Shown here: positions 1 through 39,350 of the stretch, in pieces
Position numbering within the stretch: the first letter of the stretch is position 1
Layout: each line of letters opens with the position of its first letter
Position numbers and translations under genes: made by a program
DNA from: a virus
Length of the DNA: 39,350 nt
IMG/VR virus record: IMGVR_UViG_3300025636_000011
Span: 1 to 39,350 of that record
Reading direction: 5' to 3' (one strand)
Notes under the pieces: generated by a model
Database searches by the model: none
The model's input: the letters and a program-made list of their open reading frames with translations, nothing else
What the model was told of the DNA's origin: nothing

Positions 1-3000
1 TGGTGTATATGTAAAGTTAGAGTCTGGTGTAAATCCAACAGAGGCTAAACTATCCACACTATCACTATTAACAATAATTGATGAGCTTCCTTTAAATGGC
101 TTTGTATATAATTTTAAATAATCTACCGTAAAGACATCTAGTAAGTTATTAATAATATAGGCCTCAGAATCATCTACCAATGTTGTTTTATCACCAATTG
201 ATTTTGTAGGGTCAACGTTATTTTGTAGCGTATTCAATACTCCACTATCTCTTAATTTTTTATAGATAATAGAATCCATATAGAAATCTGCAATGATAGT
301 ATCTTCATCTTCAAAAATCATTATATCCGACGTGTTGTTTGAATTTCTAAGAATATCATCCAAGGTCTCTTTACTTTCAACATTAGAATATGTATAATCT
401 AATAGGATATAAGAGTTTTCCACTTTCATTATAGTTGAAGCTAAATACGAGCGCTCTTCTATTACATCAAATGTACCAAATATTTTTTCACTCTTACCAC
501 CAGCTAAAGATCTAGTATAATAATTAGAATCCCAAGAAGATCTAAATACGTTTATATCTTTTTTATCAACTGCAACCTCACCGATTAAAGGGTATAGAGG
601 AAGTAGTTCACTTGAAGCTGTAAGTTTTGTAACACCAGTTGTATTAATATCATTTACTTTATGGTAAAAATGATTCTTAATTAAGCCCCAGTTTTTATCA
701 TGGTCTCCATTGTCCTGTATAAAATCTAGATTAAATGTAGTTCCACATCTATTGAATCTATTGTAATAATCTCTAGCAATAGAATATTCAGATATACTAC
801 TTAATGAATGTTTATATAGGCTCTCTTCAAAAACACGTTCAACTAGGTTACTGGTCAAATGATCTCTATTAACTTTAAAATGGCTATATAGATCTGTAAA
901 TGTTACAACTGGTTTCATATCAATTGTATAATTACCAGAATGTCTAATTAAGAACGGGTAGTACTCTTGTCCCTCTACTATATTATAACCAATTGTTCCA
1001 GAGCTTAATTTATAAGATTTTGGTTTATTAGTATCTTCTTCAATCGTTAAGTTAGCACGCTTAATTATTTCTTTACCACTTTCAAAGTTAATTACAAATC
1101 TATTATCAAGTATTGCACCATCGGCTTCTACTGTTTTATAATTAACTTCAGAGCTACTAGAATTTAATAAGTCGGCAACATTTTGAATTGATAATAATTC
1201 AAGTATAGTACTATGTGCATTAATACCACCACCTTCATATTTGTAAGAAGCATTTTCTTGTAATGAAGTACTTAAATAAGAAGTTGGTAATAATGTAGCA
1301 GGATTAGTAATATCATATGGAATTTCAAATAGTGTAAGCTCATTACTAGAATTAACAGATTGGACGCGAGCAGCATATGTAATACCAGTACCAAAATCCA
1401 TTAAAATTCTACCATAAATACCATCAGTTCCTGTGGCAATTTGATTTGTAAAAATAGAATCTGTGCCGTCAGCATGTGGTATTCCCGTAACACTATAAGG
1501 TCCACTTCCAGTAAAATCTGCATTTAATAAATCCAGAGCACCGTATAAATTAACATCACTATAAATATATTCACCAATACCATCGCCGTACGTATCAGCA
1601 TTAGAATAAACTAATTTATGGTTAAGTTCATATAACATTTTTCTAGAAAGACTTCCATCTAACCAATAATCACTAATATTTAGAGTAATAAAGAATATTA
1701 CAAACTTATGTGCTTTATTTTGGATTACATCATATTCTATAGAATTTGATATATCTTCAGAAGCAACATTATTCACTTTAACTACAGTGCTAAATCTATA
1801 CCCATTAAATTCTGTATTCTTTACAAACTCAGTTGCCGTATCATTATTAAATTCCTTTCTAGACTTAAATAAAACTTTAATACCTTTAAAGAATGTACTA
1901 GCAAATGAGCTATTACTTCCACTTTCAATTGGACTATATTTTTTTAGTCTAACAGATTTAGCAAAAGTTTCCATATCAAAATCTACTGGATCTGGGTTTA
2001 ATAAATCAGAAGAGTCTGATTTTACCTCTAAACCTTCATATACCATAAACTTATCAAAGTAGTCGTTGTCAGGATCCATGAATAATTCTTTAGTTAATTC
2101 AAAATCTTGTATGAAATTAATATAACTAAAAGTATCATTAATATCATTGTACCTATAATAAGTCGGTAATTTATCCATATAGAACCATTCATGTGTGAAC
2201 GATTTTCTGTCTCTACCTTCGACTGATAAATCTGGAGCAAAATTAGTTCTACCAAATGCCTCATTTGCATTTAGATAATAAGGTTGTTCTCTTGTCGTTA
2301 ATGTATTCTTTAATACCCATTTGTTTATATTTGGAACTACTCTAGAATTAAGAGCAAATTCCTTAGTATTATTCTCTTGTAATCTATCAAACTCAGAGTT
2401 AATAAATTCACCTGCAGTACCATCAATTGTTTCATTTGATAGCAATGGTAATAGATTAGAGAAATAATCAATAGGACTTAATGTATAATCAGAGTCTAAT
2501 ACTTCATCTTTAGTTAAACCATCATATAGAGGTCTATAATTAATATTGTCAGGGTCAGTCCAATCATTAACATCTATATACGGTGGGTATACAATATTAT
2601 CTAGCTCTTCTTTTTTCAATTCTTTCAAATCAGAATTTGAAGTATCGTAAAAATCAAAGTTCAAGTCATAGATATCATATGCTGAAAATAAACCAATTCT
2701 AAGTTTGTTCTCTCTATATAGTCGACACTCTCCGGTTTTTACTGTGTTTATATCGTTCAATATTACTTTATACATTCCGGATTCTAAATCATCAATATAT
2801 TCAACAACATCAATAATTTTATTATAAACATTATTATATTTAGTACCTATGTAATCGCCTATTTCAATTTCACTAATAGTATTACCATTCACCAATATTG
2901 ATTTACCTTTAGTATTACCACCATTAAAATAATGTGCATTCCATGCTGTCAATACACTACTATCAAGTTTCAATATTGAGCCTGTAACATCAGTATTGCC

Positions 3001-6000
3001 AACTTTAATAAAATCAGTATTATTTGCTTTTTTAACCAATAACGTATGTTGACGTAAATTATAACCTGGTATATTTACACTCACATAAACATCTTCACCT
3101 CTACTAAAAGCGCTAAATCCTGGCAGGTTACTAATAGCTGCGCTTATTGCAATCGCAATATCAGAAAGTTTTCCATCTTGTGAAAATCTGTTTCCACTAA
3201 AAGTACCTTTAGTTAATTCACCTGGACCTGCTGCAAATAATGTATTATCATATAAATTTACATGAGTATAGATTTTAGAAACTTTAATAAGGTTTCCATT
3301 TGGAATAGTAATGGATAGCGACAAGTCACCTAATGCTGCTAATTTTTCAGTTAGGTAAATTTTATCAGCATCTTTTGAAATATAAAAATGAGGTTCCATT
3401 GTACTAGCAGCAAACGCAGCCTCAAAGTTAGTTATAGCCTCGGCAACATTAATACCAGTATTAAAAAGAAGAGAATGTCCATGTGAATCCTCAACAGTAA
3501 CAAAAGTACTAGGAATATGTTTAATAAACTTAAAACTAAAAGCTTCCTCTTTTGTATTTACAATTGCAATATTATCATTAATAACCGGAGTTTCAGCTAT
3601 CTTAAATTTAATAAAGTCAAATCCTTCATTAGAGTTTGCTTCGATATCTATTGATTTACCTTTGTATTTTATACCTAATTTTTTAGTTATGTCATCCATA
3701 ACATCAACCACTTCTAGGTTTAGATTAGACTCTTCATAATACTTATTATTAGAAATCTTATAATAATCACCTTCAATTGCAGTATAACCTAGAGTTAGAG
3801 TCCCATTCATCATTTTATAACTAGGGATTGCACTAGATTGAATGTTTGGATTTACATAAGAATCTAAACTCTTAAACTTAATCCTACCAAAATTAGAGGT
3901 TAATACTTCTCCTAGACCAGAATCAATATCATCTACATATAGACCAAAATATCTATTTACTGAATAGTCAATAGAGGTTACATCATCAAATAAAAACTCT
4001 AGGTTTAAGATATTAGCAGAGACCATAGAGTTTCTTCTAAATCCATCTGTAATAAAATCATTTGCCTCAATTAAAGGCTTATCTTTCTCAACGAAGTCTT
4101 TATATAAGTACTCAGATTTACTCGTAAAGCCACCCCTACCCAAGTCAATTCCATTATATGAAGACTTTTCATTCTTTTCAAATGAGAATGTTAGCGGACT
4201 AGCTGGGAACCTCTCATCTTGTACATGGTTTCTAATATACTGTCCAATTGCTGAATTCTTAGTTAAGTCAAAAGTCTTTACAATTTCAGCATTAGTCAAC
4301 ATTGATTTAATTCTACTAAAATTATCTTCAGCATTATTTAAAAGTCCTTCAGCATTGGCTGGATTGTTAACCTTAAAGATAACAAATTTCTTGGGCATAT
4401 TAAGGTCTGCCCAGATTGGTGCAAATATTCTAAACTTCTCGTCATATAATTTAGAGTAGTTAATAGTCGCTCCATATTGATAGCTTTCCTCAATTTGAGA
4501 TTGATAGCTTTCCAATACTGAAATATCAGAAGATGCTCTTTTTGTTTTATAAATAATATCAGATGGAGTTCTTTTAGAATTAAAGAAATTAGCAACATCA
4601 TAAGAATATTTACCAGACTTATTTACCTCATTCCTTTTATATTCAATACTCGCTAAATCTTTAGTAGCATCAATTGATTCTAAGAAGATTCTATCATTAT
4701 TATCTGCAATTATTTTAACATTAGCTGTTAATTTAGGATTTGTTCTTAATAGAGGTCTAGCAACGTTATCCAGATTATAATTTTTTTCAGTTGAAAAGTT
4801 AGGACCTAGATCTAATGGTGGCTGACTTTCAATATCACCAAATGTATATGGGTCTCCTATTGGTTCACATATACAATCTCCACAATTACTCTTTAAATTT
4901 AAAGTATTACCACTAAAGATACCTATGAAGTTGGCAGGTTTTTGTTGTACTGAATCATATCCAGTTGGAAGTAAATTCTCTAATAAACTCTGAGCCTCAT
5001 CAATATCTATGGCAACAATCCTGTGTATAAATGTCATACATTCATCTCCAGGTGTATTTGTAAATGTATATTTTCCAGATGCTGTCATTGCATCATAGAA
5101 CTCAGTCATGTAATTACTCTCACTATCAAAGTGGTCACCGTCTATTAAATAGACTGGGAATTTAACATCACCTGGGCTTACCTCATCTGCGATACAAGAC
5201 CAGAATGCATAAAAGTATTTAGATGCAAATGGATCTGCACTAGAAATTAATTCACTAGTTAAAGTTCCAGGTCTTACATAGATATCACACTTGCCACCCT
5301 CTTCTATTAATAGACCGGTAGCAAGATCGCCAGCTGAAGTAAATCCAAACCATTTTCTACCACTAGGTGTGGCGTTTCCATATAAGAACCATCCTAATAC
5401 AGGCTCTCCATGGCTACTATAAATTGCCAATGGGGCCAAATCACTACTTAAAGCGTTTTCAGCACCTGTAATAGTAGTGTAGATTAAAATATTTTGCTTT
5501 GCAATTTCTAAAAGGTCTAAGTTAGAACCTTTTACAGCTTTATAATAAAAATTAGTTTTAATTTTACATCCAGTACAAAAATTATCTGCCTCTGTATCGA
5601 ATTCTTTCGTATGTTCTAGAGTAATAGGGAAAATCTCATATTCTATAATAGAGCATTGAAATTCATCACCACCATCTAACCAAGCATAAGAATTTGAAAT
5701 ATTCCAGACGACATACCATTCCTTTCCATTACCAGTTAGCGTGTATGCATAAAATTCTGGAACTGCATCAATCCATGAATATGGGATGCCTGCACTGGTT
5801 TCATTAATCCAGGTTTGTGCTCCAATTGTGCTTACAAAGATAGGAATACCTTCTTGTGCAATTTGTAATAAAGTTTTAGGTTCTGTTGCTGGGTAATATA
5901 TTGTACGATCTTCCCATGTATCAGGGTCACATGCATCGGCACTAGATAGAGCCGTATAAGGAATTACTAAAGATAATACTGTATAGCTAGGACCAGATCC

Positions 6001-6792
6001 ACATACTAAAATATCTTTAATGTTACCAGCCGGATCTACTTGTATAGCTTTACCTTCTCCAATTAAAAGGTACCAATAATTTTGACCATCAAACGGAACT
6101 AAAAGACCTGGGTCTTTAAAAAGAGAGCTACCAACTACTAAATCAGCTACATCTAGTGTTGAAAATATAGTACCATTAAAACTATCTAAACATGCCCCCG
6201 ATGCAGCAACATGTGGACTTGATATATCTATAGAAAAGCTAGAAACTGAACAATTCTGAATATCATCAACCTTACCGTTAGGACTAACCTGTATTGATTT
6301 ATTTTCATCATATAAATAATACCAGGCATTATCACCATCAAATGGTATAGTTTCACCTAAGTCATCATATAAAACATCTCCAAGTGCAAGTGTGTCTGGA
6401 GTTATTGCACTGTTATATTTAGTGCTATCAAGTACATTATTTAAACATGCTGAATTTGCATCTGGTGATCTTAGACCTAAGCCAATACCACTAGAGCTAC
6501 AAGTATTTTCATCAGCTACAACTCCATTTTCATCAACTAGTATTGATTTATTAAATTCGGTATAATACCAATAAGGTACACCGGGATCTTTAGGAGTTAC
6601 TCCGTCCTCTATGAAAATATCTAGTTGTGTAGCACTTGCATCTAAAAATATCTCACTTCCAACTGCAGGTTCTGCTAAAGCACCTCCTTGGTCGTCAAAA
6701 TATCTACTAGTACCATCCGTTGATGCAGCACATGCATCATTACCGTCAGTAAAGTATGTTGCCCCGTGTATCTTAAAGCCTATTATCGCCAT
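1..6792 (-). CDS. Giant fibre/adhesin-like virion protein (3' end outside window)
   Basis: An uninterrupted minus-strand frame runs from ATG at 6790-6792 to the left edge, giving at least 2,264 codons. I checked it for in-frame stops along its length; a TAA lies three codons before the ATG, so the start is secure. The first ~290 residues hold three successive Cys-bounded modules (C21/C98, C116/C181, C201/C264, next C288), each with a W-Y-Y/Y-W-Y patch followed by K-S/A-I-x-V and an Asp/Gly-rich turn before the last Cys. A CxxCxC cluster lies at 637-642. The rest is Asn/Asp/Ser-rich with no enzyme motif recognised. It is the last gene of the tail-fibre block. By size, position and composition it is probably a tail fibre or baseplate-attached adhesin, an inference. 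The repeat type is one I associate with Bacteroidetes phage proteins. Confidence 0.75.
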   Translation of the reverse strand, partial: MAIIGFKIHGATYFTDGNDACAASTDGTSRYFDDQGGALAEPAVGSEIFLDASATQLDIFIEDGVTPKDPGVPYWYYTEFNKSILVDENGVVADENTCSSSGIGLGLRSPDANSACLNNVLDSTKYNSAITPDTLALGDVLYDDLGETIPFDGDNAWYYLYDENKSIQVSPNGKVDDIQNCSVSSFSIDISSPHVAASGACLDSFNGTIFSTLDVADLVVGSSLFKDPGLLVPFDGQNYWYLLIGEGKAIQVDPAGNIKDILVCGSGPSYTVLSLVIPYTALSSADACDPDTWEDRTIYYPATEPKTLLQIAQEGIPIFVSTIGAQTWINETSAGIPYSWIDAVPEFYAYTLTGNGKEWYVVWNISNSYAWLDGGDEFQCSIIEYEIFPITLEHTKEFDTEADNFCTGCKIKTNFYYKAVKGSNLDLLEIAKQNILIYTTITGAENALSSDLAPLAIYSSHGEPVLGWFLYGNATPSGRKWFGFTSAGDLATGLLIEEGGKCDIYVRPGTLTSELISSADPFASKYFYAFWSCIADEVSPGDVKFPVYLIDGDHFDSESNYMTEFYDAMTASGKYTFTNTPGDECMTFIHRIVAIDIDEAQSLLENLLPTGYDSVQQKPANFIGIFSGNTLNLKSNCGDCICEPIGDPYTFGDIESQPPLDLGPNFSTEKNYNLDNVARPLLRTNPKLTANVKIIADNNDRIFLESIDATKDLASIEYKRNEVNKSGKYSYDVANFFNSKRTPSDIIYKTKRASSDISVLESYQSQIEESYQYGATINYSKLYDEKFRIFAPIWADLNMPKKFVIFKVNNPANAEGLLNNAEDNFSRIKSMLTNAEIVKTFDLTKNSAIGQYIRNHVQDERFPASPLTFSFEKNEKSSYNGIDLGRGGFTSKSEYLYKDFVEKDKPLIEANDFITDGFRRNSMVSANILNLEFLFDDVTSIDYSVNRYFGLYVDDIDSGLGEVLTSNFGRIKFKSLDSYVNPNIQSSAIPSYKMMNGTLTLGYTAIEGDYYKISNNKYYEESNLNLEVVDVMDDITKKLGIKYKGKSIDIEANSNEGFDFIKFKIAETPVINDNIAIVNTKEEAFSFKFIKHIPSTFVTVEDSHGHSLLFNTGINVAEAITNFEAAFAASTMEPHFYISKDADKIYLTEKLAALGDLSLSITIPNGNLIKVSKIYTHVNLYDNTLFAAGPGELTKGTFSGNRFSQDGKLSDIAIAISAAISNLPGFSAFSRGEDVYVSVNIPGYNLRQHTLLVKKANNTDFIKVGNTDVTGSILKLDSSVLTAWNAHYFNGGNTKGKSILVNGNTISEIEIGDYIGTKYNNVYNKIIDVVEYIDDLESGMYKVILNDINTVKTGECRLYRENKLRIGLFSAYDIYDLNFDFYDTSNSDLKELKKEELDNIVYPPYIDVNDWTDPDNINYRPLYDGLTKDEVLDSDYTLSPIDYFSNLLPLLSNETIDGTAGEFINSEFDRLQENNTKEFALNSRVVPNINKWVLKNTLTTREQPYYLNANEAFGRTNFAPDLSVEGRDRKSFTHEWFYMDKLPTYYRYNDINDTFSYINFIQDFELTKELFMDPDNDYFDKFMVYEGLEVKSDSSDLLNPDPVDFDMETFAKSVRLKKYSPIESGSNSSFASTFFKGIKVLFKSRKEFNNDTATEFVKNTEFNGYRFSTVVKVNNVASEDISNSIEYDVIQNKAHKFVIFFITLNISDYWLDGSLSRKMLYELNHKLVYSNADTYGDGIGEYIYSDVNLYGALDLLNADFTGSGPYSVTGIPHADGTDSIFTNQIATGTDGIYGRILMDFGTGITYAARVQSVNSSNELTLFEIPYDITNPATLLPTSYLSTSLQENASYKYEGGGINAHSTILELLSIQNVADLLNSSSSEVNYKTVEADGAILDNRFVINFESGKEIIKRANLTIEEDTNKPKSYKLSSGTIGYNIVEGQEYYPFLIRHSGNYTIDMKPVVTFTDLYSHFKVNRDHLTSNLVERVFEESLYKHSLSSISEYSIARDYYNRFNRCGTTFNLDFIQDNGDHDKNWGLIKNHFYHKVNDINTTGVTKLTASSELLPLYPLIGEVAVDKKDINVFRSSWDSNYYTRSLAGGKSEKIFGTFDVIEERSYLASTIMKVENSYILLDYTYSNVESKETLDDILRNSNNTSDIMIFEDEDTIIADFYMDSIIYKKLRDSGVLNTLQNNVDPTKSIGDKTTLVDDSEAYIINNLLDVFTVDYLKLYTKPFKGSSSIIVNSDSVDSLASVGFTPDSNFTYTP

Positions 6793-21968: not shown

Positions 21969-22009
21969 GATAATATATAATAAATAATTAAAGATAATAT
22001 ATAATAAAT
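21962..22009 (+). repeat. 24-bp perfect tandem duplication in a 5' leader
   Basis: Two back-to-back copies of a 24-base unit (21962-21985 and 21986-22009), beginning AATTAAAGATAATATATAAT. The second copy runs into the ATG of the gene at 22008. The duplication doubles the A-rich leader and a GATAATATATAATA box, and may affect initiation or promoter strength. Confidence 0.85.
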
Positions 22010-22814
22010 GAAGAAGCTAAAATCATACAATCAATTTATAAACGAATCAAAGGAAAATGACATTATGAATGTTATTTTAGATTCATTGGAGCAGACCATT
22101 ACTGAGATGGCAGCAGAAATCGAAACGTGGTTTCGAAAGAAATTCCCAAAAAACATTATCACAAAATATGATAGAGAAAGTTGGAGAATATCCTTAATTA
22201 GAGATATGGTTAAAGCGGTTGAAAAATATACACTACCATCCGATACATTAGTAGATATTCAATCAAACGAAGGAAATAAAGGTAACATTGAAATAATCGC
22301 TAAAATTCAGAGAGATGGAGAAGTGTATGATTTTAGAACCGAAGCAATTTATGCAGGTGGAAATAATATACAAGTCCTTCATTATAGATATATTACCAAA
22401 ACAAGATTACCAAAGACAGGTATCAGTACACTTACTAAAGAGTATGATGCAAAATACAAGAAACTGTCTAAACTCGAAAAGTTAAATACTGAAATTAATC
22501 GATATCAAACTAGAATTACAAAAGCAGAAGAAGATGTTGCAATTAATTCAAAAATGAATGATGACGAAATTATCCAAGCATTAAAGGATGGTGGTGATTG
22601 GTATGACTGGCCAACATGGGACGAGATTGTAAAGAGGGATGCTGCCAAAAATTACAATAATGACGAGGCATATTACAATCAAGAAATGGAAGATAGTATT
22701 GCTAAAAAAATAGAATATTGGAAAAATATAAATATTACCTGGAAAGAAAGAACTATTGTAGAGTTGTCTAAGGAAATTGTAAAACTTCAAAAGAAAATAG
22801 AAGCTTTCATCTAA
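22008..22814 (+). CDS. Capsid-targeting-leader protein, candidate internal head protein
   Basis: A 268-residue protein beginning MKKLKSYNQFINE then SKEN. This leader resembles the T4 capsid-targeting sequence MKTYQEFIAE and the four leaders at 37157-39103, with a prohead-protease-type (I/L)-x-E site after residue 13. After the leader come an amphipathic helix, an alpha/beta domain (about 45-140), a Lys/Glu coiled coil (about 145-180) and a Trp-rich acidic patch (GDWYDWPTWDEIV). A final helix ends in K-L-Q-K-K-I-E. No catalytic motif was recognised. It is the first gene of the plus-strand island, with its own promoter candidate and terminator. Packaging in the head, cleavage and injection are inferred; the molecular target is unknown. 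Confidence 0.65.
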   Translation: MKKLKSYNQFINESKENDIMNVILDSLEQTITEMAAEIETWFRKKFPKNIITKYDRESWRISLIRDMVKAVEKYTLPSDTLVDIQSNEGNKGNIEIIAKIQRDGEVYDFRTEAIYAGGNNIQVLHYRYITKTRLPKTGISTLTKEYDAKYKKLSKLEKLNTEINRYQTRITKAEEDVAINSKMNDDEIIQALKDGGDWYDWPTWDEIVKRDAAKNYNNDEAYYNQEMEDSIAKKIEYWKNINITWKERTIVELSKEIVKLQKKIEAFI

Positions 22815-34236: not shown

Positions 34237-35970
34237 TTATTTAATAGTTTTAATACGTTCGTTGAAGCTAGGTGGAAAGAATCCCTGTTTATTTATCAAG
34301 CTTCCAAAACAAGCATCCAGAATATAGGTCACTGCCCAATCATCTTTACTTCTTACTGATCTTCCAACACCTTGCATTATAGAGATTCCAGTTTTCCAAT
34401 CATACCATTCATTAGAGGTCTGCATCTTTGCTTTAATTAAAGGGTCTCCTAAATTAGGATAAGGTACTTTAAAAAAGATCTGGAATCTACTAATATCATC
34501 CTTTAAATCCAGGCCTTCTAAAAGTGAAGGTCCCATCAAGATCCCATCTTCTTTCTTTTTAAAGACTTCTATAATTCCTTTCTTTTCTTTAGAGGAATCA
34601 TAATCCATTAGCCTAAATGTATGCTTGCTATTCTGTTTAATATAGTTTGAAAACATATAAGAGCCCGTGTGTATTACGCCACGTTGTCCTTTATGTTTAC
34701 TTATAATCTGATCTAGTATTTCTACAACTTTAGGTAGACTAGCCTCTCTTTCTCTAAATGATAACTTGTGTCTATTAACAAAAACCACTGGTGACTTTTC
34801 GTAATCAAATGCATTTGGAACTCTAATAAATTTAGCATTCTTAATACCCATGATTTTTACAAAGGCTCTAGGGTCTCCAATAGTTGCACTCATAAAGACT
34901 TTAAAGCCAGCCTTTTCGTGTAAGTATTTGTTAACCATTTGACTCTCTTCCACACACATAAACTTAGCCTCTTCTTCCGACTGGTCTATTACCATGGCTT
35001 CTATGCCAACTTCTTTGATTAAGGCAACATAGTCATCAAATTTACAGTAGACATCCTTAATGCGGTCGAACGTGGTTAATGCAGTAGACCAATCTCTTGG
35101 TACTTCTCTATTCTTAAATCTTTTACCAGCCTGTGCTTTTGTAATTTGTGCTGCTTTTCGATAAACCTTAGCTACCTTTCTAAAATCTTGCATTGCTTCA
35201 AATAGAGCTGGTCTACTTTTTTCAGTTAGTAGTCTATTTACAATAGCCTTAATACTTCCTAGGGTTTGTATTGGAGTGCCAATGCCCTGCTTCTGTATAA
35301 ATCTATTAGCAAGTCCAAATCTATCTGTAATGTCAATATCAATCCTAGGGCTAAAATGACCCTGTACAATTTCATCAACTTTATGTGCTTCATCAAAGAA
35401 GACAAAATCTCTCTGTTTAAATGGAACCTCTCTACCATCTTGTAGCATTCTGTCTTCTACATAGTTTCTTTGGATTAACCAGAAGCTATAATTCAAGAGT
35501 GCCACAGGTTGCTCTATGGAACGCTTTCTATTCTGGAGATATTCACATGAGCTATAGCAACTAAGCTTCTCAGCTTGCTCGTAACCCATACCCTTGAGCT
35601 TACAATCACCAAGGCTAAATGGTAAACCGTTTACACTACATTCATAATTGTCAACACCACGAACTGAAGGCCATCTTAGGCCTAATTTATAGAAGTCACT
35701 TTCATATTGGTCTTGCAGTGAAAGATCACTTGTAACAAGATAACCTGTGTTTCCTAATTCTTTAAGAACATATGAGGACCACATTGCGATCAAAGATTTA
35801 CCAGCTCCAGTTGGAGCGTCAACCACTACAGTTGCCTCTTGGTCTTCAAGGTATGCATTGCAAATAGCCTCAACAATTTCTCGTTGGCCATTTCTAAATT
35901 CAAAATCCTTTCCAAAAGTGCCAGACTCTAGTGCCTGGTCTATAATTTGAACTACAGTTCGTTCCAGCAT
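34237..35970 (-). CDS. XPD/DinG-type superfamily 2 DNA helicase
   Basis: A 577-residue helicase. Motif I is APTGAGKS at 52-59 and motif II is DEAH at 193-196. Between them four cysteines (111, 123, 138, 142) occupy the place of the XPD-family iron-sulfur cluster, followed by LLNYSFWL (158-165), the usual segment after it. Motif VI appears as GVGRSVRSKDDW near residue 540. The family moves 5'-3' on single-stranded DNA and acts in repair, R-loop removal or recombination. In the phage it probably supports replication, recombination or packaging of DNA. Its start overlaps the deaminase gene by 19 bases, so the two are co-translated. Confidence 0.85.
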   Translation of the reverse strand: MLERTVVQIIDQALESGTFGKDFEFRNGQREIVEAICNAYLEDQEATVVVDAPTGAGKSLIAMWSSYVLKELGNTGYLVTSDLSLQDQYESDFYKLGLRWPSVRGVDNYECSVNGLPFSLGDCKLKGMGYEQAEKLSCYSSCEYLQNRKRSIEQPVALLNYSFWLIQRNYVEDRMLQDGREVPFKQRDFVFFDEAHKVDEIVQGHFSPRIDIDITDRFGLANRFIQKQGIGTPIQTLGSIKAIVNRLLTEKSRPALFEAMQDFRKVAKVYRKAAQITKAQAGKRFKNREVPRDWSTALTTFDRIKDVYCKFDDYVALIKEVGIEAMVIDQSEEEAKFMCVEESQMVNKYLHEKAGFKVFMSATIGDPRAFVKIMGIKNAKFIRVPNAFDYEKSPVVFVNRHKLSFREREASLPKVVEILDQIISKHKGQRGVIHTGSYMFSNYIKQNSKHTFRLMDYDSSKEKKGIIEVFKKKEDGILMGPSLLEGLDLKDDISRFQIFFKVPYPNLGDPLIKAKMQTSNEWYDWKTGISIMQGVGRSVRSKDDWAVTYILDACFGSLINKQGFFPPSFNERIKTIK

Positions 35971-36464
35971 ATAACTTCATTTACAACAATTCCAGCCTTT
36001 TCTAGTAGTGTAACACCACTCATATCTCTATAATCTTCTGCATAATATACCCTGGATATTCCAGCTTGAATAATAAGCTTTGCACAATCAAAACAAGGAG
36101 CAGTCGTAGTATAAAGATCAGCTCCATTTGAAGTCATTGTAGATTTTGCCAATTTAGTAATGGCATTTGATTCTGCATGTAGAACCTCTTTTTTAGTAAT
36201 AGCATCTGGTTTATGACAACACCCATTGTCACATGTAAATCCTTGTTCTACTAAATCTAGAGCATCGTCTGGATTTTCATAAAATCTATTGTCGTCCTCT
36301 TCACACTTATTATCAAATCCATGTGGAGTTCCGTTATAGCCGAATGAGACTATTTGTTCGTCTTTAACAATAATACAACCTACGCGTCTTCGCTCAGCAT
36401 AACTAAGCTTAGCTGTTTGATAGGCCATTTGCATATAGACTTTATCTACTGATATTCTTGGCAT
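35952..36464 (-). CDS. cd: dCMP deaminase
   Basis: A 170-residue enzyme of the cytidine/deoxycytidylate deaminase family. The catalytic HAE lies at 96-98 and the zinc motif PCFDC at 123-127; GYNG (42-45) is typical of the nucleotide pocket. Extra Cys/His residues (C54, C78, C82, C83, H84) suggest the second zinc site of the T4-type enzyme. It converts dCMP to dUMP and so feeds dTMP synthesis for an AT-rich phage genome. In many T4-like phages it is allosterically controlled by dCTP and dTTP, not testable here. It leads the pair with the helicase, downstream of a strong terminator. Confidence 0.9.
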   Translation of the reverse strand: MPRISVDKVYMQMAYQTAKLSYAERRRVGCIIVKDEQIVSFGYNGTPHGFDNKCEEDDNRFYENPDDALDLVEQGFTCDNGCCHKPDAITKKEVLHAESNAITKLAKSTMTSNGADLYTTTAPCFDCAKLIIQAGISRVYYAEDYRDMSGVTLLEKAGIVVNEVICWNEL

Positions 36465-36553: not shown

Positions 36554-37126
36554 TTATTTTGCAGACCAAGCCTCTTTAAGCTCGTCAATTCTTTTTGCAA
36601 AAGTATCTTTCATTTCGTTACAAGCAGCCTCGTACATCTCAATTGTTAAATCACCTTCTCTAACTTTAGAACAAGCTTTCTCGAAAGTTTCAGCAGCCAT
36701 TGATGCGTTTAATGAAGCCATTTCTTTCATGTATGTTTCTACAGTATGTTCTGGGTAATCATCACCTTCATAAGTACATGCCTCATCAACTGCCATTTCA
36801 TAACACTTTTTTATAGACTCAGATACTGTTTCCTTTTTTTCATCCTCCTCATCTTCGTCTTCGTCCTCATCATCGTCGTCATCGCCATCATCGTCGTCAT
36901 CGTCATCATCTTCGTCATCGTCCTCATCTTCGTCATCGTCCTCATCTTCGTCTTCAGATTCATCTTCGATTTCTTCGTCTTCTTCGTCTTCTTCCATGCC
37001 TGTTGTTTCACATGTACATGGGTCGTTATCACAAACTTCACAAACTTCTACATCTTCAGTTTCTTCAACCTGGGCAGCTTTAATTTGATTATTGTAATCT
37101 TCGAATGATAGTATTGTTCTAGCCAT
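36554..37126 (-). CDS. Highly acidic protein, prohead-core/internal-protein candidate
   Basis: A 190-residue protein. Residues ~45-97 are almost only Asp and Glu. Before this run comes a Cys cluster (CEVC, then CTC) that could hold zinc. After it, a helical C-terminal domain of ~90 residues contains further Cys (ESIKKCYEMAVDEACTYEGD). The start, MARTILSFEDYNNQI, resembles a degenerate form of the neighbouring KLFEDFINE leaders but lacks the cleavage Glu. T4 gp67, a prohead-core protein, is similarly acidic, so a core/scaffold or DNA-mimic role inside the head is plausible, not shown. It adjoins the leader-bearing cluster and is followed by a terminator. Confidence 0.6.
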   Translation of the reverse strand: MARTILSFEDYNNQIKAAQVEETEDVEVCEVCDNDPCTCETTGMEEDEEDEEIEDESEDEDEDDDEDEDDDEDDDDDDDDGDDDDDEDEDEDEEDEKKETVSESIKKCYEMAVDEACTYEGDDYPEHTVETYMKEMASLNASMAAETFEKACSKVREGDLTIEMYEAACNEMKDTFAKRIDELKEAWSAK

Positions 37127-37156: not shown

Positions 37157-37540
37157 TTACTTATTCTGACTTTCAAGAACATATGCACCTGCAGTCTTTT
37201 CACCGTCTCGTAACATTTTAGATGCTCTTGAATATCCATCTAATAATGTACCTTTGTAAACTACAAGGTCATTATATAAATCATCCGGATCTACTTCATA
37301 TTCATCATATCTCTCTTCGCCTGAATTATAATACTCCTTAAAGTCTCTGTCTTTAAGTAGATCCTTGAGTTTAATTTCTTTAAGCTCCCAACCGTCATTT
37401 GGCTTAATAAATTTATCAATGAAATAATCTGGAACATCGCTTTCTTCTGGTGTAATATCCTCAATATATTGAGCTACCTCATCACCAGTAAATGTATTGT
37501 TTTCAGTAATAAATTCTTCAAAGAGTTTGACGTGTTTCAT
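37157..37540 (-). CDS. Capsid-targeting-leader protein with ParB-like motif
   Basis: A 127-residue protein starting MKHVKLFEEFITE, the shared leader with an I-x-E site after residue 13. The body is acidic. Residues ~92-121 read LVVYKGTLLDGYSRASKML followed by GEKTAGAYV, resembling the G-x-x-L-(L/V)-D-G-x-x-R strand-helix motif of ParB/sulfiredoxin-like domains. The helix before it (KLKDLLKDRDF) fits too. Such domains act in DNA binding or as nucleotidyl hydrolases, but no activity is claimed. It is the last leader-bearing gene in the string, 18 bases from the previous one. Cleavage and packaging are inferred. Confidence 0.65.
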   Translation of the reverse strand: MKHVKLFEEFITENNTFTGDEVAQYIEDITPEESDVPDYFIDKFIKPNDGWELKEIKLKDLLKDRDFKEYYNSGEERYDEYEVDPDDLYNDLVVYKGTLLDGYSRASKMLRDGEKTAGAYVLESQNK

Positions 37541-37558
37541 TTTATTAAGTTATTTTAT

Positions 37559-38038
37559 TTAAACGCCGAATCGACCTATTCTAGTTATATCTGAAAATCT
37601 GTCGAATTGCTTTTCCCAATGGTATCTAAAAAGACCTGAATCTAAAGCCCTGTCTTTAGTATCGCCTTCCTTTGGTGTCCAATTAGGGTCATCTTTATAT
37701 AATTTAAGTTCAAGATCCAAATTGCGGCTAGTATGCCATTTTGCATTTTGTAGAGATACTATTGCAATCTGTGCATATTTACGATCAGCATCGTAGCGCA
37801 TTGTAACATCTGTAATCTCGCATTCAAAATTGTCTTCTAAGAACTTTTTTTGTGCTGGTGATTTTTTACCTAATTGAGCAGCACCACCGTGCCATTTTGA
37901 AAACTCTTTCCAGTTTAATTTTTTACCGATAGCCTGTTTTAGAAAATCAAGCAATTCATTAGCCTTTTCTTCTGAAATACTCTTTCTAATTTTAATATCC
38001 TCATTTACAAATTGTTCAAAAAGTTTAATGTGTTTCAT
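37559..38038 (-). CDS. Capsid-targeting-leader protein, unknown body
   Basis: A 159-residue protein starting MKHIKLFEQFVNE, the shared leader, with V-x-E at 11-13. A possible second I-x-E site lies at ISE (21-23). The body is alpha then beta: a helix rich in Leu/Lys (ANELLDFLKQAIGKKLNWKE), a basic Gly-containing patch (HGGAAQLGKKSPAQKK), a beta sheet (CEITDVTMRYDADRKYAQIA) and an aromatic C-terminus. No family recognised. It has the same leader and orientation as its neighbours; predicted to be a processed internal head protein. Confidence 0.65.
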   Translation of the reverse strand: MKHIKLFEQFVNEDIKIRKSISEEKANELLDFLKQAIGKKLNWKEFSKWHGGAAQLGKKSPAQKKFLEDNFECEITDVTMRYDADRKYAQIAIVSLQNAKWHTSRNLDLELKLYKDDPNWTPKEGDTKDRALDSGLFRYHWEKQFDRFSDITRIGRFGV

Positions 38039-38082
38039 TATATGTTTTATTTTAATTATATTTTATTAATATTAGAGTATAT

Positions 38083-38763
38083 TTATCTCTTGATTTCTTT
38101 CATTTTTTCAGTTGCCCAATCAACACCTTCATCTCCACCCCAGATTAACCATGCAACATAACCTTTATCTTTCCATGGTGTCTCTTTATACTCAGCTGAA
38201 ATCTTAGAGTTCTTTCTATGTCTATTAAATGCAGACATTCTACCAACAGTATCAGCAGATAGGTTTTCACCTTTGGCTAATTGGTGAGCTCTCGCCCATC
38301 CAACTGGAGTTCCAGCATCAACTTCATCTCTACCATATTTCTCTTTCCAATCAATTGCCTTTTGTGCATTCTTCTTAGCAGCTGCTGGGTAATCATTATA
38401 AGTTTCTTCTGCCTCTATAATAAGACTCTCTTTAGCCACTTCTTTTTTAGCCTTCTCAGCCTCTTTAGCAGTTTTAACCCTTGCCTTAAGCATTAATTCC
38501 TGTTGTTTTGTCTGAGTCTTTTTGGCATCAATATCTGCAGATTTAATCTGTGATTTGATTAAAAGTTTTTGTAATTTATCAGAAGGTTCAGCCTTACCAT
38601 CTTTTTGAGCAGCATCAAGTTCTTTAGTTTTATCAACTAGGTCTTCTTTCTTCTTAAAGGCTTTCTTAATCTTTTTATTAAGTCCTTTAACTTTCTGTTT
38701 TACAGACTGTGGCTTCTTGCCCTTTTCGGCAATAAAATCTTCAAATAGTTTTACTCGTCTCAT
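38083..38763 (-). CDS. Capsid-targeting-leader protein with basic coil and C-terminal phage domain
   Basis: A 226-residue protein when started at ATG 38761-38763 (MRRVKLFEDFIAE). The longer frame to 38805 would bury the leader and overlap the upstream gene, while 38763 leaves one base after that gene's stop. Residues 14-110 are extremely Lys/Ala/Gln-rich and coiled-coil-like. SLIIEAEE at 113-120 forms a second I-x-E site, which would release a C-terminal domain (122-226). That domain carries NDYPAAAKKNAQKAIDWK, GWARAHQLAKGENLSADTVG-type and RMSAFNRHRK motifs and ends YVAWLIWGGDEGVDWA. I have seen this small domain in other phage virion proteins but cannot name it. Highly basic, so DNA condensation is possible. 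Confidence 0.65.
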   Translation of the reverse strand: MRRVKLFEDFIAEKGKKPQSVKQKVKGLNKKIKKAFKKKEDLVDKTKELDAAQKDGKAEPSDKLQKLLIKSQIKSADIDAKKTQTKQQELMLKARVKTAKEAEKAKKEVAKESLIIEAEETYNDYPAAAKKNAQKAIDWKEKYGRDEVDAGTPVGWARAHQLAKGENLSADTVGRMSAFNRHRKNSKISAEYKETPWKDKGYVAWLIWGGDEGVDWATEKMKEIKR

Positions 38764-38764
38764 A

Positions 38765-39103
38765 TTAATCAAATTTATAGGGTAGTTTTTTATCATAACC
38801 ACCATCTCTTACCTCTTTTGCAACATCAGCATCAGATCCACCCCATGTTGGTTTACCTTTTTCTAGGAAAGCATTAAGTCTTGCATATCCCCATTGTTCT
38901 TGTCCAACTCCAGGTCTATGACCACTATTCCAAGCATCCATTCCACGTCTCATCACAATTCTTAGAATACCAATTGGTACGCCAGTCTCTTTGGCCTTAT
39001 TCTTAAGTCCAGTCTCAATGGCTTCATTATCAATCGGTCCTCTATCACCTTTAGCCTTTTCAGCCTCATTGATAAAATCTTCAAATAGTTTAATATATTT
39101 CAT
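38765..39103 (-). CDS. Capsid-targeting-leader protein with HRPG-type domain
   Basis: A 112-residue protein starting MKYIKLFEDFINE then AEKAKG, the copy closest to the T4 style E-A cleavage junction. Residues 22-97 form a compact domain with GPIDNEAIETGLKNKAKETG, LRIVMRRGMDAW, GHRPGVGQEQWGYARLNAFL and TWGGSDADVAKE. The H-R-P-G...Q-W-G-x-A-R pattern recurs in phage and giant-virus proteins; I believe it corresponds to Pfam DUF5824 but could not check. The function of that domain is unknown. The gene stop lies one base before the next leader gene's ATG, so the two are coupled. Confidence 0.7.
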   Translation of the reverse strand: MKYIKLFEDFINEAEKAKGDRGPIDNEAIETGLKNKAKETGVPIGILRIVMRRGMDAWNSGHRPGVGQEQWGYARLNAFLEKGKPTWGGSDADVAKEVRDGGYDKKLPYKFD

Positions 39104-39107
39104 AGTT

Positions 39108-39350
39108 CTATTCTTTTATTTTAATATCTTCCGCCTTAATATCATTATATGTAAATACTGACTTCATATCAGGTGGCATCAAAGGATCCGGCATCCAGTC
39201 ATATCCCTTACCATTTATTTCTAAAATAACAGGATCGTCACCAAAATCAAAATATTGATCTAATTTTCTAGCTGCTCCAATTGAAGTAACTGCAAACGTA
39301 GCTCTGTATAATTGTTCAGTTGAATTACTACCAGATAATCCAGATCCAAA
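39108..39350 (-). CDS. C-terminal end of an unknown protein (5' end outside window)
   Basis: The minus-strand frame is open from the right edge to TAG at 39108-39110, giving the last 80 residues. They include EQLYRATFAVTSIGAARKLD, PVILEINGKGYDWMPDPLMP and a charged tail DIKAEDIKIKE. The stop lies four bases before the start of the leader gene at 39103, so it belongs to the same transcription unit. Whether it carries the shared leader cannot be seen. No family recognised. Confidence 0.65.
   Translation of the reverse strand, partial: FGSGLSGSNSTEQLYRATFAVTSIGAARKLDQYFDFGDDPVILEINGKGYDWMPDPLMPPDMKSVFTYNDIKAEDIKIKE

Follow-up and report, generated by a model that had tools for sequence, protein, structure and literature searches.

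A cluster of unrelated genes in a marine T4-like virus shares one short N-terminal leader, and this leader is probably (at a probability of about 0.85, judged from sequence comparison) the Bacteroidota-phage counterpart of the T4 capsid-targeting sequence, placed on the genes of a cargo island in a T4-like myovirus. The shared leader, its boundary, the synteny, the co-occurrence with a prohead protease and the diversity of the bodies are directly observed; packaging, cleavage and injection are inferred, without proteomics. The DNA analysed, called the window here, comprises positions 1 to 39,350 of IMG/VR record IMGVR_UViG_3300025636_000011 and is a fragment with tail genes. On its minus strand an open-ended frame of more than 2200 aa with Cys-rich repeats (1-6792) runs to the contig end and probably encodes a tail or adhesin protein.

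Unrelated proteins with a common leader

Four adjacent minus-strand genes of the window have the start M-K-x-[IV]-K-L-F-E-x-F-[IV]-x-E in common. The gene at 38765-39103 encodes 112 aa and joins the leader MKYIKLFEDFINE (39065-39103) to a DUF5824 body (Pfam E 3.8e-13). Beside it lies a gene of 226 aa (38083-38763), in which the leader MRRVKLFEDFIAE (38725-38763) precedes a Lys-rich stretch and a phrog_2859-type domain (phrog_2859 E 7.9e-12); its frame is open already from 38805, and the leader start is an internal ATG at 38763. The third gene (37559-38038, 159 aa) begins with MKHIKLFEQFVNE (38000-38038) and has a body of unknown fold, every homologue of which is leader-bearing, and the fourth (37157-37540, 127 aa) begins with MKHVKLFEEFITE (37502-37540). 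All four starts are present on the minus strand as and where a first-pass annotation of the sequence had quoted them, and its statement that the bodies are dissimilar is borne out: without their first 13 residues the four proteins show no mutual resemblance, the best cross-hit having E = 0.71.

Four is an undercount. The 3' end of a further leader gene, cut by the contig end, encodes 80 aa (39108-39350, minus strand) with 98% identity to the C-terminus of a complete gene in a relative (L035:9605-10243) that begins MKHIKLFEQFINE. On the other side the island is flanked by a fixed gene for a very acidic protein of 190 aa (36554-37126, minus strand; body net charge -66) with the variant leader MARTILSFEDY, from which a clear cut site is absent. 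Its homologues, at the same place in relatives, begin M-x-K-K-I-L-S-F-E-E-Y or MAKLKTFEQYVSE. This gene is followed by a dCMP deaminase (35952-36464, minus strand; phrog_174 E 1.8e-48), a conserved flank that occupies the same position in relatives. One more leader-like gene, of 268 aa and with the start MKKLKSYNQFINES, lies on the plus strand amid baseplate genes (22008-22814); it was found without a preset motif, and its body has no family match. The cargo island thus comprises five leader genes and a sixth with a variant leader, and the plus-strand gene belongs to the set as well.

The shared leader of the window genes is not due to chance. When the 13 residues following the Met were compared without supervision, with no motif given in advance and with homologous bodies disregarded, the window gave five matching N-terminal pairs versus none in three internal control windows, and two long relatives gave 19 versus 0 (G012) and 9 versus 0 (G019).

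Boundary of the leader and predicted cleavage site

To locate the end of the leader, 89 proteins were collected with a pattern that constrains residues 1-10 only and leaves residues 11-13 open. I, V or L stands at residue 11 in 70 of the 89, V also being common there. At residue 13, 73 proteins have E and 8 have D, and there are leaders that end in D or are without the E. Information content drops from 2.5 bits at residue 13 to 0.7 at residue 14 (mostly A, K, E or S) and is approximately 0.2 from residue 15 onward. A separate per-cluster logo was excluded for the E column because its selection had required [ED] there. Conservation stops at [ILV]-x-E, in agreement with the (I/L)-x-E cut that the first-pass annotation had predicted by analogy with T4. 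All four window genes have F7 and F10, two residues that the search pattern itself imposes on the large sample.

In the T4 leader MKTYQEFIAE, targeting requires residues 4 and 7 and processing requires residues 8 and 10, and a leader with D at residue 10 still targets but is uncut (PMC9026906). When the two leaders are aligned at the E, T4 residues 4, 7, 8 and 10 correspond to F7, F10, I11 and E13 of the window leader. The leader codons differ synonymously between copies, even inside one genome, which indicates that the peptide, and not the DNA, is what selection keeps.

The predicted cut also coincides with the start of leaderless homologues. The body of 37157-37540 occurs without a leader in four loci, where its MNTFTGQEV start aligns with the point of the predicted window cut, FITE/NNTFTGDEV (the slash marks the cut). 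A second family behaves likewise (FIQE/SSTEESYNDYP versus MSKEQTYKDYP), and a third pair is similar (VNE/ATVEMDAM versus MATVTMDAM). In the AlphaFold model of a leader-tagged 2H phosphodiesterase the leader is a low-confidence segment before a well-predicted body. Two apparent two-cargo fusions (L137:4919-6034 and L127:1436-1966) contain internal leader remnants, FEQFVSE and LVESVLNE respectively, where separate homologues have a full leader; in the former the remnant stands at the position of the leader in the separate gene L171:1229-2113. It is possible that these remnants are protease sites.

Head module and prohead protease

The head module and the protease are absent from the 39-kb window, and since the window is a fragment without a head module the protease can be seen in relatives only. 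Among the leader-bearing contigs longer than 100 kb, an S77 (gp21-type) protease is encoded by 17 of 20 (5/5 and 12/15), a proportion for which no leaderless base rate is available as a comparison; the three long leader contigs without an S77 hit may be incomplete. The gp21-type protease expected alongside the leader was accordingly found in most of the long leader contigs, and not in the window fragment itself.

In G012 the consecutive head genes match Portal_T4 (7e-74), Peptidase_S77 (2e-11) and Gp23 (1e-46) in Pfam, and the gap between portal and protease is occupied by a 112-aa protein starting MKIIKTFEDFITE. The gene order in the long relatives is portal, a protein with the start MK-x-x-KTFEDFITE, protease and major capsid protein (MCP), with the same head-gene order in G002, G019 and L102 as in G012. 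The slot protein of L102 starts MKHVKLFEEFLSE and so has the exact MKHVKLFEEF leader of the cargo genes, and Chryseobacterium phage MA9V-2 has MKTFTYFINEA in this slot. As the T4 head order is 20-67-68-21-22-23, the leader-type slot protein of the relatives occupies the position of gp67. The S77 motifs GE[LM]xHP and SxR are conserved from T4 to the leader phages. The protease ORF runs on into a long acidic C-terminal region, most of which is covered by phrog_207; this part may be a scaffold, and no homology to gp22 has been shown. In PTm1 an S77 protease is present and a shared leader was not detectable by the unsupervised N-terminus comparison.

Distribution of the leader

A 30-base pattern for MKH[IV]KLFExF matched at least 120 stretches of viral contigs, and a looser leader pattern had zero matches in 84,980 prokaryote genomes (one genome per species). 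The 189 distinct leader proteins in the sequences sampled fall into 93 body clusters, so that at least 93 body families exist in viral contigs. Many contigs carry several leader genes, and without a preset motif 8-9 were found in each of two long relatives. A DNA search of the region against 50,697 phage records returned only two short domain matches. The first-pass annotation had suggested looking for more leader starts, and the window, relatives and one isolate all yielded them.

In approximately 20 relatives the site before the acidic protein and the dCMP deaminase carries varying sets of genes, mostly leader genes. Also inserted in this island are genes whose W-V/I-T/S-type repeats look BACON-like by eye (L004:8509-9846, L007:2257-3354, L013:7628-9930 and L021:13293-14222). 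A family of large proteins of about 700-850 aa (L074, L091, L131, L137, L167 and G019:103635-105755) begins with short sequences of the type MNFNQFLNE or MATFEEFLNE, shares a conserved R-x-Y-T-E-N-H-P motif and has no Pfam match; it is probably another leader-bearing cargo family.

The isolate is Sphingomonas phage PAU (JQ362498.1), whose host HER1398 is now reassigned to Sphingobacterium (PMC3738902). Here the unsupervised comparison found 81 N-terminal matches between non-homologous proteins, versus 4, 3 and 1 in controls. Twenty unrelated PAU genes begin M-K-[TS]-[LI]-x-x-L-[YF]-E, often followed by (A)KLNEA, and most of them lie at 100-121 kb around the protease (loci L195-L205 and L229). 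The PAU leader has Y8 and no aromatic three residues on. In the GenBank notes gp142 and gp154 are internal capsid proteins and gp152 is a scaffolding protein, although the 'internal capsid' notes may rest on similarity and not on measurement. The same layout with a different leader in the PAU lineage points to function and not to the shared ancestry of one sequence.

Further starts were seen in other phages, searched in part. Prevotella phage Lak-A1 (genetic code 15) shows a moderate excess of N-terminal pairs, 27 versus 6, 4 and 1 in controls. Five of its unrelated proteins (183.6-194.4 kb and other places; L270-L287) start M-N-K-N-I-K-x-L-x-E-S-L-F-D-D or similarly, three of them within about 6 kb of the S77 protease; this is possibly another leader type. 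Salicola phage SCTP-2 shows a weak excess only (18 pairs versus 8, 3 and 6 in controls), with small groups of unrelated proteins that have starts such as I-R-K-Y-M-x-L-L-E-N-A-E (L250-L269).

Apparent cargo exchange at the leader

The window and contig L003 are nearly identical at the island, and L003, like L035, has one extra cargo gene before the DUF5824 gene. The BLAST pieces that align the two overlap and end inside the leader at 39065-39103 (window 1-285 and 256-700, counted from 39350), within which 6 of 39 nt differ compared with 2 of 300 nt in the body. The simplest account of the difference, inferred from this single alignment, is that recombination between leader copies lost or gained a whole gene in frame. 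With the crossover placed inside leader DNA in this pair, the leader also appears to be a handle for cassette swapping. Across close relatives whole bodies are exchanged while the flank beside them stays fixed.

The proposed cargo bodies

The bodies of two window genes have counterparts in other head contexts. Roseobacter phage CRP-823 has a single protein, encoded between portal and MCP, that combines phrog_2859-type and DUF5824-like domains, and a phrog_2859-type domain also lies inside the prohead protease gene of HGTV-1, which suggests that both kinds of body are head-associated elsewhere too. For 37157-37540 and 37559-38038 nothing convincing was found in PHROG or Pfam, and the AlphaFold model of the former is poor (pLDDT 54). 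Its assignment as ParB/Srx rests on a by-eye resemblance and stays a guess, the PDB profile hits being weak and unconvincing. PDB profile searches gave only weak, chance-like hits for 37559-38038 and none for the bodies of 38083-38763 and 38765-39103.

Leader bodies in relatives include a cytidylyltransferase (CTP transferase), a GNAT acetyltransferase, a ParB-like protein and a 2H phosphodiesterase. The leader-tagged 2H body of L081:3747-4295 matches Pfam Acb1 with E 1.6e-4 and 21.9 bits, below the curated cut-off of 27. Both H-x-T motifs are present in 6/6 of the 2H bodies (HCTL/HVTL and HMTV/HMTI/HCTV). The AlphaFold model has a pLDDT of 84 and its top Foldseek hits are all Acb1 (7t27, 9q2y and 7t26), as are the three hits of a sequence search (E 0.04-0.28). 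The protein therefore resembles the anti-CBASS phosphodiesterase Acb1 (T4 gp57B, FBB1) in its 2H fold and in both H-x-T motifs, and differs in its sub-cut-off Pfam score and in the presence of a head leader; its activity is inferred, and it is found in relatives and not in the window. In T4 the start of the Acb1-family gene 57B, MMEFKDFSTG (AF158101 73591-74410, L194), is like that of the neighbouring ipI, MKTFKEFTST, which is perhaps a coincidence.

All three T4 internal proteins inhibit type IV restriction enzymes, and the leader is the sole part that they share (PMC12373910). By this precedent and that of the Acb1-like body in relatives, an anti-defence role is reasonably likely for part of the cargo set, although it is unproven for any one protein. 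The anti-defence effectors proposed by the first-pass annotation hence have one good lead in relatives and no evidence for the four bodies of the window.

Proposed mechanism and alternative explanations

It is proposed that the 13-residue N-terminal tag docks the precursor to the prohead core and that a gp21-type protease then cuts after the E of F-[ILV]-x-E. By analogy with T4 the freed body would stay in the head through DNA packaging and be injected with the DNA. Any small protein could turn into cargo, as the tag is the only constant part, and the repeated tag DNA would allow whole cargo genes to be gained or lost in frame by recombination, of which one clear case has been seen. With at least one cargo family in relatives being an Acb1-like 2H phosphodiesterase, some of the cargo probably acts against host immunity. 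The head-packaged, protease-trimmed cargo envisaged at first reading has met every prediction that sequence can address, namely leader, boundary, synteny and protease co-occurrence; targeting, cleavage and injection, like the anti-defence function, are inferences only.

The tagged proteins could instead be prohead core or assembly proteins that dock into the scaffold and are cut up, with nothing useful injected. Leaders are indeed borne by the protein in the gp67 slot, by the acidic product of 36554-37126 and by PAU gp152 with its scaffolding note, and T4 gp22, gp67 and gp68 are core proteins that get degraded (PMC9026906). Core proteins would not be expected to exchange their bodies wholesale between close relatives beside a fixed flank, nor to include a 2H phosphodiesterase, a GNAT acetyltransferase and a cytidylyltransferase, and this explanation is unlikely. 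Synonymous codon variation even within one genome argues that the shared start is not a translation or mRNA element, and the stop at [ILV]-x-E without any decay from the start codon, the same leader on the gene between portal and protease and the identical layout of PAU with another sequence argue equally against a generic N-terminal signal without a link to the head. What such an element would explain is the position of the signal at the very start of genes and the A-rich start regions, with A at -3 in 71/91 genes; it is very unlikely.

The gene-sized insertion or deletion with its crossover inside the leader raises the question of whether the leader is mainly a recombination handle or a selfish repeat that spreads between genes without any targeting role. 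Selection at the peptide level despite synonymous drift, and the leader on a conserved protein of the head-core slot, make this highly improbable as a sole function; the roles of recombination handle and targeting tag are mutually compatible. That the genes are adjacent, short and unannotated might suggest descent of all bodies from one tagged ancestor with divergence beyond recognition. This is barely tenable, contradicted already by the assignment of the bodies to different folds and families (2H phosphodiesterase, GNAT, CTP transferase, DUF5824 and ParB-like), and some bodies have leaderless homologues elsewhere. The head-targeting leader is thus the reading retained here.

Relation to known systems and host

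The capsid-targeting leader is an established concept for T-even phages (PMC9026906, PMC3012670, PMC12373910), and the class of mechanism is already known from T4. Like T4 IPI, IPII and IPIII with their capsid-targeting sequence (CTS) and gp21, the leader phages have a short N-terminal leader on unrelated bodies that ends in [ILV]-x-E; the aromatic-x-x-aromatic spacing of T4 is seen ahead of it in the four window genes and not in PAU. They also share the S77 protease and the T4-type set of portal, protease and MCP, have a leader-type protein encoded between portal and protease, and have their cargo locus apart from the head genes. Unlike the 10-residue T4 leader, the leader described here has 13 residues and another sequence. 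Compared with the three internal proteins of T4 there are 8-9 leader genes in two long relatives, 20 in PAU and 93 or more body families in the sample. The bodies include enzymes, the protease is fused to a long acidic C-terminal region and the hosts are probably Bacteroidota.

In the giant phage SPN3US inner head proteins have N-terminal propeptides that are removed by the prohead protease and are thought to be head-targeting, and two of these proteins have an identical N-terminus (PMC5694885). Most SPN3US propeptides are far longer, several exceeding 100 residues, and the sharing pair is still 34% identical to each other. Polyvalent or injected effectors such as P1 DarA/DdrB and T4 Alt are believed to be packaged and then injected, for use in early conflict (PMC5512222). 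In contrast to these large multidomain proteins, those of the leader set are small, mostly single-body proteins with one short common tag.

Helicase and MCP comparisons place Prevotella Lak, Chryseobacterium and Tenacibaculum phages nearest among isolates, all of them at a distance. The start regions of the leader genes are A-rich, a feature typical of Bacteroidota translation starts. Together these make a Bacteroidota host for the window virus likely, though unproven, and give support to the Bacteroidetes link made in the first-pass annotation.

No description of such leaders for Bacteroidota phages was found in the literature, most subscription papers being outside the search, and it cannot be excluded that leader-mediated shuffling has been noticed earlier in T-even phages. 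What appears to be new is the presence of the system in T4-like Bacteroidota phages with another leader, together with its scale, the enzymes among the cargo and a hint that genes are also swapped at the tag.

The leader provides a searchable flag for putatively injected proteins by which anonymous genes of uncultured phages can be turned into a list of candidate head-delivered effectors, whose action on Bacteroidota immune systems could be tried. For PAU, a phage in culture, it makes a clear prediction, and it suggests a way in which phages renew their cargo, by exchange of genes at a common tag. Should the Acb1-like body be packaged, anti-CBASS activity would come with the DNA and need no prior synthesis. 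A wider suggestion, tentative and short of an even chance, is that T4-like Bacteroidota phages of one large clade carry a head-loaded modular arsenal of dozens of interchangeable effectors, including the Acb1-like enzyme, under one cleavable tag that doubles as the recombination site for cargo swaps, with other S77 lineages doing likewise under tags of their own. Were this true, the Acb1-like enzyme brought by such phages could degrade the alarm nucleotides of the host as soon as infection begins.
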